Assembly (NCBI RefSeq): GCF_003841465.1
Contig: NZ_REFZ01000004.1
Location: 124,001 to 188,000 of the forward strand
Direction of reading: 5' to 3'
DNA from: Natrarchaeobius oligotrophus
GTDB taxonomy: Archaea; Halobacteriota; Halobacteria; Halobacteriales; Natrialbaceae
Length of the DNA stretch: 64,000 bases
Made by a program: the position numbers and the translations under genes
Shown here: piece by piece, positions 22,563 through 24,645 of the stretch
How the letters are laid out: the number at the start of each line of letters is the position of its first letter
How positions within the stretch are numbered: the stretch's first letter is position 1
The notes under the pieces: generated by a model
What the model was told of the DNA's origin: nothing
Databases searched by the model: none
What the model saw: only the letters and a program-made list of their open reading frames with translations

Positions 22563-23054
22563 CTACGGTCTGTCGATTTCCACCTCGTCACCGACCGCGA
22601 TACCGGTCTCGTTCGCGTACCCTCGCGGCACCTCGAGAACCCACTTCGCCCGCCCGGTGTAGCGAAGCTCCTCGCCGTCTTCTCCCGGCTCCGGTGCGCG
22701 AGCGTGTTCGACAGCCGTGATCTCGCGGTCGGCCCCGACGAAGACGATGTCGATGTCGAAGTCCATCTCCCGCATCACGTACGTCCGATCGCGTTCGCTC
22801 GCGTGAACGAACAGCATCCCGTGGCCTTCCTCGAGCGATTCGTGCTCGCTCAGCCCCGTGTACCGTTGTTCCCACGTATCGGCCACCTCGACCTCGACGG
22901 TGGCTTTCGGGTCTCCGTCGTCGTCCAGGACGTACACCACCGCTCGATCCTGCACCCAGGGCGCGGAGACGACGCCGATCTGCACGAGAGCGAATCCGAG
23001 CAACGAAAGCGCGAGAATAACGAGAAACACCTGCAGAGCGCGCTCTCGAGCCAT
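22563..23054 (-). CDS. DUF192 family protein, membrane anchored
   Basis: A 163-residue protein with an N-terminal membrane anchor (VFLVILALSLLGFALVQIGVV) and an external DUF192 domain. Family blocks are VEVADTWEQRYTGLSEHESLEEGHGMLFVH, MREMDFDIDIVFVGADREI and YTGRAKWVLEVPRGYANETGI. The fold is small and beta-rich and its biochemical role is unsettled. It is on the same strand as the ABC exporter, 63 bp upstream of it, but that gene has its own TATA box. Confidence 0.92.
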   Translation of the reverse strand: MARERALQVFLVILALSLLGFALVQIGVVSAPWVQDRAVVYVLDDDGDPKATVEVEVADTWEQRYTGLSEHESLEEGHGMLFVHASERDRTYVMREMDFDIDIVFVGADREITAVEHARAPEPGEDGEELRYTGRAKWVLEVPRGYANETGIAVGDEVEIDRP

Positions 23055-23114
23055 ACCCGCTGTGCCACGCGAGAAAGTAAAGGTTATTCGGACGGGGCGG
23101 TTCCGTTCGAATGC

Positions 23115-23188
23115 GGGCTCGTGGTCTAGCTGGTTATGACGCGGCCTTTACAAGGCCGAGGTCGGTGGTTCGAACCCGCCCGAGCCCA
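23115..23188 (+). tRNA. tRNA-Val (anticodon TAC)
   Basis: A 74-base cloverleaf. The acceptor stem GGGCTCG pairs with CGAGCCC, discriminator A. The anticodon stem is CGGCC/GGCCG with loop TTTACAA, giving anticodon TAC (Val). The T arm has GGTTCGAACC. CCA is not encoded. There is no intron. Its 3' end is repeated downstream. Confidence 0.95.
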
Positions 23189-23430
23189 TTTCTGTGGCGA
23201 GCAATACCGCGAGCCAGAGAAATGTATGCGAGCGGCGGGTTCGAACCCCATCAGTCGCGCGCAGCGAAGCGAGCACGTCTGATTTCGGTTCGAACCCGCC
23301 CGAGCCCACTTCCTTCGGCGAGCAACCCGCGAGCTACGGGATGGGATCGAGGGCAGGTTCGAATAGACGAAGGGCGCACAGCGAAGCGAGCACGTCTCGG
23401 CGTCGTTCGAACCTCCCCGGGGCAGCTCTC
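23167..23430 (+). repeat. Tandem ~120 bp units carrying copies of the tRNA-Val 3' end
   Basis: The last 22 bases of tRNA-Val (23167-23188) recur exactly at 23287-23308, 120 bp on, and a degraded third copy (GTTCGAACCTCCCC...) occurs near 23405. The spacers are homologous too: both contain GGCGAGCAA...CGCGAGC, a lone GGTTCGAA or GGGTTCGAA, and then CAGCGAAGCGAGCACGTCT (about 23262-23281 and 23378-23397). The unit is therefore the 3' tRNA piece plus about 98 bp. No ORF here is credible. This is the pattern left by repeated integration or unequal recombination at a tRNA attachment site. Confidence 0.85.
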
Positions 23431-23722
23431 GGCTCGAGTCTCCGCCGTCGACGGACGAGAACGTCGCCCATTCGAGGTCACGCCACCGACAGCACCTCGC
23501 TTTCGAGGTCGCGCCACCGGCGGTCGCTCCGATCGGACGCTCGAGACGCCGAGCGATAGCTGTCGTAACGGTCGACGAACGGCGCTGACGTCGGGTCTAG
23601 GCCACCGCGAATCCGGAGCGGCGGTTCGTTGATGCGAACGTGCGCGTGCGGTCTCCCTCTCGAGTCGTGGCGCGTAATCTCTTCCTACACTATCGGCGAC
23701 GAAACTCCATTACCGGGAGTAG

Positions 23723-24169
23723 TCAGTGCTTGAGTCGGGCGACGTTCTCCCGAATCTGACTGAAAAAGCCGTCGTCGGTGGTGGATTCGAGCGCGGCGTG
23801 AAGTCGCGAGTTCTCCGGTTCGTCCTGAATCACGACGCGGAGGTACGGCTCGAGCTGTTCGTAGTTGTCTCCGAGGACGACGGTGTGGTTGTCCTCGTCG
23901 TGGTCGACGACGCCTGCGTCGGCCAGTTTCGGCACGTGACACTGGACGGACGAGACGTAGACGCTCTTGTACTCGTTTTTCGCGACGTCGTCGGGAGAGA
24001 CGTCCTGTTCCCAGCCGGCGATTCGCTCTGCAAGCTTCGAGAGCTCGATCGGCCCATCCTGACCTCGAAGCGCATAGAGCAGGTACCGGCGGCGACGATT
24101 CGCCAGTAACTCGAGGATGAGATCCGCGGAGAGCTCACGCCGTTCCTGACTCGAGGTAAGGGTGCTCAT
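23723..24169 (-). CDS. Winged-helix protein of haloarchaeal type (DUF7344-like)
   Basis: A 148-residue putative DNA-binding protein. The block LSADLILELLANRRRRYLLYALRGQDGPIELSKLAERIAGWEQDVSPDD, then NEYKSVYVSSVQCHVPKLADAGVVDHDEDNHTVVLGDN, is the winged-helix domain found in many haloarchaeal regulators. A C-terminal acidic helix follows. It lies alone between the two tRNA repeat regions, a typical position for a regulator left from an integrated element, although codon use is host-like. Confidence 0.8.
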   Translation of the reverse strand: MSTLTSSQERRELSADLILELLANRRRRYLLYALRGQDGPIELSKLAERIAGWEQDVSPDDVAKNEYKSVYVSSVQCHVPKLADAGVVDHDEDNHTVVLGDNYEQLEPYLRVVIQDEPENSRLHAALESTTDDGFFSQIRENVARLKH

Positions 24170-24369
24170 AACACGATATTACCCTCCGAAGCGGAAAAGG
24201 GTGTCTTGAATATCCGAAAATCCAACAGGCAGCCCGTAAGAGAGCGGATCACGACTCGATTTCTCTCGTTACTGCGAGGCTACTCAGTTTCGCTTGCATT
24301 CACGAGTGGATCGGTCGGCCGCCCTCGATTCGAAATCCTTTTTTATACCATGGACGGAGATAGAGGTGC

Positions 24370-24443
24370 GCCGCCTTAGCTCAGACTGGGAGAGCACTCG
24401 ACTGAAGATCGAGCTGTCCCCGGTTCAAATCCGGGAGGCGGCA
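24370..24443 (+). tRNA. tRNA-Phe (anticodon GAA)
   Basis: A 74-base cloverleaf. Acceptor GCCGCCT pairs with AGGCGGC, discriminator A. Anticodon stem CTCGA/TCGAG with loop CTGAAGA gives GAA (Phe). T arm CCGGTTCAAATCCGG. A TTTTTATACC element about 25 bp upstream (24338-24350) is a good TATA box. CCA is not encoded. Its 3' end is repeated twice downstream. Confidence 0.96.
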
Positions 24444-24645
24444 TGTTTCAAACCCGTGAGCGGAGCGATCGGGTGCAGAAACTGACGCCGGACGGATTCT
24501 GAACCCTAGAAGTCGCAGCGTCGAGCGAAGCGAGACGATCGTCTTCTTTCGGTTCAAATCCGGGAGGCGGCACTTCTGCTGCGAACACTGACGACGAGCG
24601 TAGCGAGTCGTCCGTGAGCAGCAGAGTTCGATCCGGGAGGCGGCA
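24421..24645 (+). repeat. Copies of the tRNA-Phe 3' end
   Basis: The last 23 bases of tRNA-Phe (24421-24443) recur exactly at 24550-24572, and a third, slightly altered copy (GTTCGATCCGGGAGGCGGCA) is at 24626-24645. Each copy is preceded by a short inverted repeat built around GAGCGAAGCGAG or GAGCGTAGCGAG (24513-24542 and 24591-24613). The remaining bases to the PAP2 gene at 24849 hold no credible ORF. Confidence 0.85.

Follow-up and report, generated by a model that had tools for sequence, protein, structure and literature searches.

In the window, a 64,000-nucleotide stretch of a Natrarchaeobius oligotrophus contig, a tRNA-Val gene and, 1.2 kb away, a tRNA-Phe gene are each followed by an array of short, non-coding units (Table 1). 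A typical unit consists, in this order, of a hairpin (A), which begins directly behind the discriminator and often carries a short T run; an inverted copy of the T-arm (X'), that is, the reverse complement of the T-loop and part of the T-stem; a core hairpin (C); and a direct copy (X) of the cognate tRNA sequence from the T-loop to the discriminator. Units are about 70–200 bp in size and end in A and X, which are not inverted repeats of each other. The identity between copy and tRNA starts at the T-loop and ends at the discriminator, the last 16 positions being inflated by the selection of the copies.

An earlier sequence-only reading had described the terminal 22 bp of tRNA-Val recurring exactly 120 bp downstream, a degraded third copy spaced by another 117 bp and homologous spacers in between. 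The repeats stand as described, and the shared spacer words GGCGAGCAA, CGCGAGC and CAGCGAAGCGAGCACGTCT are all present in the tRNA-Val array. Allowing at most three mismatches, the last 22 nt of tRNA-Val had only two matches in the 64-kb window and none in shuffled sequences, and a window scan for direct repeats enclosing an inverted copy returned the tRNA-Val array as the only place. The decayed hairpin A of the second tRNA-Val unit folds no better than shuffles. An Rfam search of positions 22800–24600 gave nothing but the two tRNAs at gathering score, and a known RNA family was rejected as the identity of the units. Beyond the features noted earlier, we found the inverted T-arm copy in each unit, a spread across the genome and across haloarchaea, and the tRNA-Phe array, in which the 3' end of the tRNA (24422–24443) recurs exactly. 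Elsewhere (L052, G000 C69:41244-41513), a second and unusual pair of tRNA-Phe and tRNA-Tyr genes stands in tandem; their 3' ends are divergent, and they carry no units.

Table 1. Features of the tRNA-Val and tRNA-Phe arrays, in window positions
Feature	Position	Strand	Evidence or remark
tRNA-Val gene, anticodon TAC, array anchor	23115..23188	+	ARAGORN; Rfam RF00005, 63.6 bits
X0, tRNA-Val T-loop to discriminator, GGTTCGAACCCGCCCGAGCCCA	23167..23188	+	
Hairpin A, unit 1, starting directly 3' of discriminator	23189..23222	+	DNA fold z -3.5
X' of unit 1, inverted T-arm copy GGCGGGTTCGAACC	23234..23247	+	Full complementarity to 23287-23300
Core hairpin C, unit 1, type 2 (..ATCAGTCGCGCGCAGCGAAGCGAGCACGTCTGAT..)	23248..23286	+	X'-C-X DNA fold z -4.9
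X1, exact tRNA-Val 3'-end copy, closing unit 1	23287..23308	+	22/22
Hairpin A, unit 2 (decayed)	23309..23342	+	Homologous in sequence to unit 1 hairpin A
X' of unit 2, AGGTTCGAA	23355..23363	+	Complementary to 23406-23414
Core hairpin C, unit 2, GACGAAGGGCGCACAGCGAAGCGAGCACGTCTCGGCGT	23364..23403	+	Related cores found at other tRNAs
X2, third tRNA-Val 3'-end copy, degraded	23404..23425	+	15/22, spacing 117
tRNA-Phe gene (GAA), anchor of second array	24370..24443	+	
tRNA-Phe unit 1: hairpin A, X' (24493-24505), core, X1 (24551-24572, 22/22)	24444..24572	+	
tRNA-Phe unit 2, partial: hairpin A and partial third copy (24626-24645)	24573..24645	+	

The tRNA genes of the same genome were located by Rfam search, and their 3' flanks were compared with the 3' ends of their own and of other tRNAs, a cognate copy being defined as at least 13 of 16 nt matching within 330 nt downstream. 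Downstream copies of the gene's own 3' end were found for 22 of the 44 tRNA genes, compared with a mean of 1.3 and a maximum of 6 for shuffled pairing, and upstream flanks, used as a control, contained 0. Elsewhere, cognate copies followed 12 of 20 tRNA genes in G019 and, in genomes of other families, 22 of 40 (G060), 6 of 18 (G055) and 7 of 15 (G058). Across the haloarchaeal genomes examined, the share of tRNAs followed by units ranges from a third to over half; the presence per tRNA is patchy, and for 33 of 42 isoacceptor names one or more of the four genomes tallied had a unit. Two methanogen genomes showed no unit copies behind their tRNAs, and apparent matches in the f25 methanogen genome proved to be neighboring tRNA genes. 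Dense clusters of extra tRNA genes were seen in G019 (C1:6995-11080 and C2:586079-588480) and in G055 (C27:216765-223762); they resemble virus or plasmid tRNA sets, and those of G019 are apparently duplicated on two replicons.

The copies track the tRNA that they follow. In overlapping and therefore non-independent comparisons, made for isoacceptors whose sequence differs from genome to genome, the unit copy was closer to the tRNA of its own genome in 160 of 173 cases and to the orthologous tRNA of another genome in 5, with 8 ties. X' follows the cognate T-stem only partly, agreeing at 3.59 of 5 positions vs. 2.46 of 5 for other tRNAs, and its match to the T-stem fades outward.

We then searched whole genomes for three cores, blind to the positions of tRNAs; reversed-pattern controls gave 0 matches. 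Of the 81 core loci, 75 had a tRNA 45–241 nt upstream on the same strand, and a core additional to these (L229) followed an intron-bearing tRNA at a distance of 55 nt. Beyond the core, in sequence that played no part in the selection, the cognate acceptor end is present in nearly all cases, mostly at 9–10 of 10 positions. A core match at L185 had no nearby tRNA and was left out of the array count. One core is common to Asp, Thr, Val, Met, Pro, Arg and Leu tRNAs, and arms specific for different tRNAs can enclose identical cores. With at most three mismatches, the type-2 core of the first tRNA-Val unit was found at 21 places in 15 of 61 genomes; a degenerate phylum-wide pattern had 0 matches, the array-bearing genome of the window included. 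The search in other genomes and behind other tRNAs that the sequence-only reading had proposed places the unit genome-wide and over the haloarchaea, with cores common to several tRNAs. The same reading would have fallen if the shared words were common local background, and chance or background words are excluded as the origin of the pattern by the window counts (GCGAAGCGAGC occurs twice in the 64 kb, both times inside the tRNA-Val array), the shuffles and the core searches with their reversed-pattern controls.

Unit content turns over between related genomes. Behind tRNA-Val, most of 30 genomes carry chains of one to three units in which A modules and cores are variously combined. Within one genus, G007 and G343 have the last X variant TTCGAACCCGCTCGAGCCCA and the downstream flank in common, and the unit between is wholly different; G034 exceeds G340 by one unit, a core and a flank being common to both. 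At L005, two identical 118-bp units stand side by side, and partial last repeats also occur. The strongest case of mobility lies at a protein-coding gene: G007 has three units behind the gene of a small OB-fold protein whose end reads GGTTCGAACCGGTC, the word resembling a T-arm being GGTTCGAACCGG. One unit is present at this gene in G343 and one at a second copy of the gene in both G007 and G343, and eight congeners have no unit there. A direct repeat, GGTTCGAACCGGT(CT), borders the insert on both sides, and the gene takes a new stop codon from the inserted sequence. The units at the end of this gene indicate that the target is a T-arm-like word and not tRNA function. The protein-gene case of mobility comprises two species (G007 and G343), and the two gene copies may share units by gene conversion, the number of insertion events being uncertain. 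At a separate locus in Halomarina halobia (NZ_CP119992.1, L208:1010-1200), the type-1 core occurs twice with a variant core between, in tandem repeats of 50–70 bp. These directly precede the start codon of a gene whose beginning, read by eye, resembles a HAD-type hydrolase, and the repeat, GCGTGAC(C), includes the first codons of that gene.

Pairing at the RNA level should give G–U replacements far above A–C replacements, as was the case in the tRNA stems of the same genomes, used as a control (54 G–U vs. 1 A–C). Mismatches between X' and X showed 16 G–U vs. 17 A–C changes and, in another sample, 11 vs. 15; in hairpin A the counts were 8 and 8, alongside 731 Watson–Crick pairs. GA-type loop motifs were found 217 times on the tRNA-sense strand and 18 times on the other. 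The hairpins look to be maintained as DNA, probably as a folded single strand of tRNA sense, since one-strand DNA hairpins fit both the absence of wobble and the strand asymmetry of the loops. Cruciforms, or hairpins arising from a copying process, are possible alternative readings at the DNA level.

The arrays are likely to be chains of small non-coding mobile units that insert at T-arm-like sites and are swapped or duplicated at X, and we infer both an enzyme and a single-stranded substrate. Units would insert at T-arm-like sequences, most often at the 3' end of a tRNA gene, keeping the gene end intact and repeating it directly, as X, at the far side of the unit. Later units would then insert, duplicate or swap at the X copies, giving arrays of unlike units and their turnover. 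Crossing over in the T-loop by a tyrosine recombinase would leave direct repeats from the T-loop to the tRNA end, and a tyrosine-recombinase-like enzyme, supplied in trans, may recognize the folded X'-C-X strand, in which X' paired with X would rebuild the duplex of T-loop and T-stem on one strand as a stand-in for the tRNA site. Such a folded stand-in would explain the likeness of X' to the target, its outward fading, the variable cores and the pairing at the DNA level. The sequence-only reading had offered three options: duplication in tandem at an attachment site, related small elements forming a chain, and a family of repeats derived from tRNA. The chain fits best, and tandem duplication occurs too, as in the identical neighbors at L005. 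The units appear to lack a host function; their persistence behind many tRNAs could instead reflect one.

The form that such a host function might take is that of structured tRNA trailers or terminators, kept by selection as RNA hairpins that aid termination or 3' processing. The presence of units behind so large a share of tRNAs in several families is in line with this, as are the strength of the hairpins and the position of hairpin A, which follows the discriminator directly and often has a short run of T. The stems, however, lack the wobble preference so marked in tRNAs, units occur at a protein gene and are patchy per tRNA, their content is wholly replaced between congeners, and fidelity extends to the acceptor part of the copy, a segment that is unpaired with X'; we regard the explanation as quite improbable. 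For the same reasons of pairing without G–U preference and of units at a protein gene, the earlier suggestion of transcripts cut by RNase Z and visible among small RNAs is not favored.

Passive tandem duplication and homologous recombination would require no dedicated mobility, an ancient duplicated tRNA tail with hairpins having been homogenized by gene conversion. Identical neighboring units and partial last repeats are in line with this, and frequent recombination is plausible in haloarchaea. We nevertheless consider it unlikely: the same core is found between the arms of different tRNAs, the protein-gene units have empty sites in congeners, and the boundaries of exchange would need to sit inside an X of 20–22 bp. 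The remaining candidate, and a highly improbable one, is that the units are attR scars of ordinary viruses or plasmids integrated at tRNA genes. Direct repeats of tRNA 3' ends are what integrases leave, and in Natronococcus jeotgali a gene for an SNJ2-like integrase is found close to an Arg-TCG array, but scars explain X and not A, X' and C, and the units measure 100–150 bp and keep a constant A-X'-C-X plan. The attP region of SNJ2 has the acceptor core and no hairpin unit, and the cores are absent from viral contigs. In IMG/VR, the three core patterns had no matches, and a looser core pattern matched six contigs, none with a surrounding tRNA or unit; the window array had no match in a phage collection and only two partial matches in a plasmid search. 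Virus-borne units were rejected on the IMG/VR and phage-collection results.

A Pfam search of five window genes near the arrays found no recombinase, the nearest products being a DUF192 protein, a DUF7344 protein, an ABC transporter and a PAP2 protein, and the nearest window genes included no adjacent integron integrase. The integrase gene of N. jeotgali (NZ_AOIA01000154.1, L214:2191-3573) encodes a PF00589 tyrosine integrase of 341 aa with 43% identity to SNJ2 Int. The tRNA-Arg(TCG) gene is on another contig than the array beside it, which probably reflects a large integrated element flanked by units. This integrase was rejected as the enzyme, as its 5' end faces the array whereas the SNJ2 attP lies behind the 3' end of the integrase; an SNJ2-type attP was likewise rejected as the ancestor of the units, the acceptor core alone being common to both.

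Archaeal tyrosine integrases, such as those of SNJ2 and pleolipovirus proviruses, duplicate the attachment site at tRNA 3' ends (PMC8371274, PMC7911831). The units resemble SNJ2-type integration in targeting the 3' part of a tRNA gene, leaving the tRNA intact and placing a direct repeat of its end at the far side, but differ in being geneless, 70–200 bp long and chained in tandem, each typical unit also containing X' and the core hairpin, which the SNJ2 attP lacks. Integrons hold tandem gene cassettes with attC sites, and their integrase acts on one folded attC strand. The likeness in architecture lies in tandem arrays of dissimilar cassettes, each closed by an imperfect palindrome that contains the site core, and would extend to function if the hairpins act as one DNA strand with exchange at the repeated core; unlike integrons, the arrays have no cassette genes and no adjacent intI, are anchored at a tRNA gene and have arms that follow the target sequence. 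The idea of an integron-like, tRNA-anchored system of geneless cassettes, with X'-C-X recombined as a folded strand at the T-arm and the target sequence in both arms, is a tentative one and rather doubtful.

The small mobile repeats SMR-A and PATE of Haloquadratum make no target duplication, and SMR-A targets IS605-type elements and PATEs (PMC3119063). They too are haloarchaeal, non-coding and palindrome-associated, SMR-A being about 110 bp long; the units differ in targeting T-arms and in being flanked by directly repeated target sequence, which is GGTTCGAACCGGT(CT) at the protein gene and 22 bp long at tRNA-Val. REP/BIME elements are short extragenic hairpin repeats moved by TnpA-REP. Like the units, they are clustered, short and extragenic, with one strand structurally distinct, but unlike them they carry no copies of neighboring gene ends and have no tRNA specificity. 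MITEs are defined by terminal inverted repeats akin to those of a known transposon; the two ends of a unit, A and X, do not form such a pair. Each of the nearest known systems (tRNA attachment-site duplication, integrons and PATE/SMR) fails at least one tested defining feature, and a search of the openly accessible literature returned no description of tRNA-anchored hairpin cassette arrays. That one small element holds its target in both direct and inverted orientation is unexplained by the known insertion mechanisms considered. If the chain of mobile units is the correct reading, a class of archaea would carry a family of mobile DNA at most tRNA isoacceptors and provide a natural test bed for the recombination of folded DNA strands; the hypervariable flanks of tRNA genes would be explained, with relevance to the assembly and comparison of haloarchaeal genomes.

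Besides the typical units, a second type has no X' and contains an inverted copy of the acceptor end instead, for example behind Ala-CGC at L041. In this type (L041, L068, L296 and several loci of G057 and G060), the inverted acceptor-end copy is accompanied by a CGCAAACGC..GCGTTTGCTCA hairpin, and the T-stem (TCCC) is where the sense copy begins, near the att core of SNJ2. Among the units with a type-4 core (L236-L257), GTTCAAATCC of the tRNA is replaced in many copies by GTTCACAATCC or GTTCATAATCC, and this recurrent 2-nt change in the T-loop copy is tied to certain cores.
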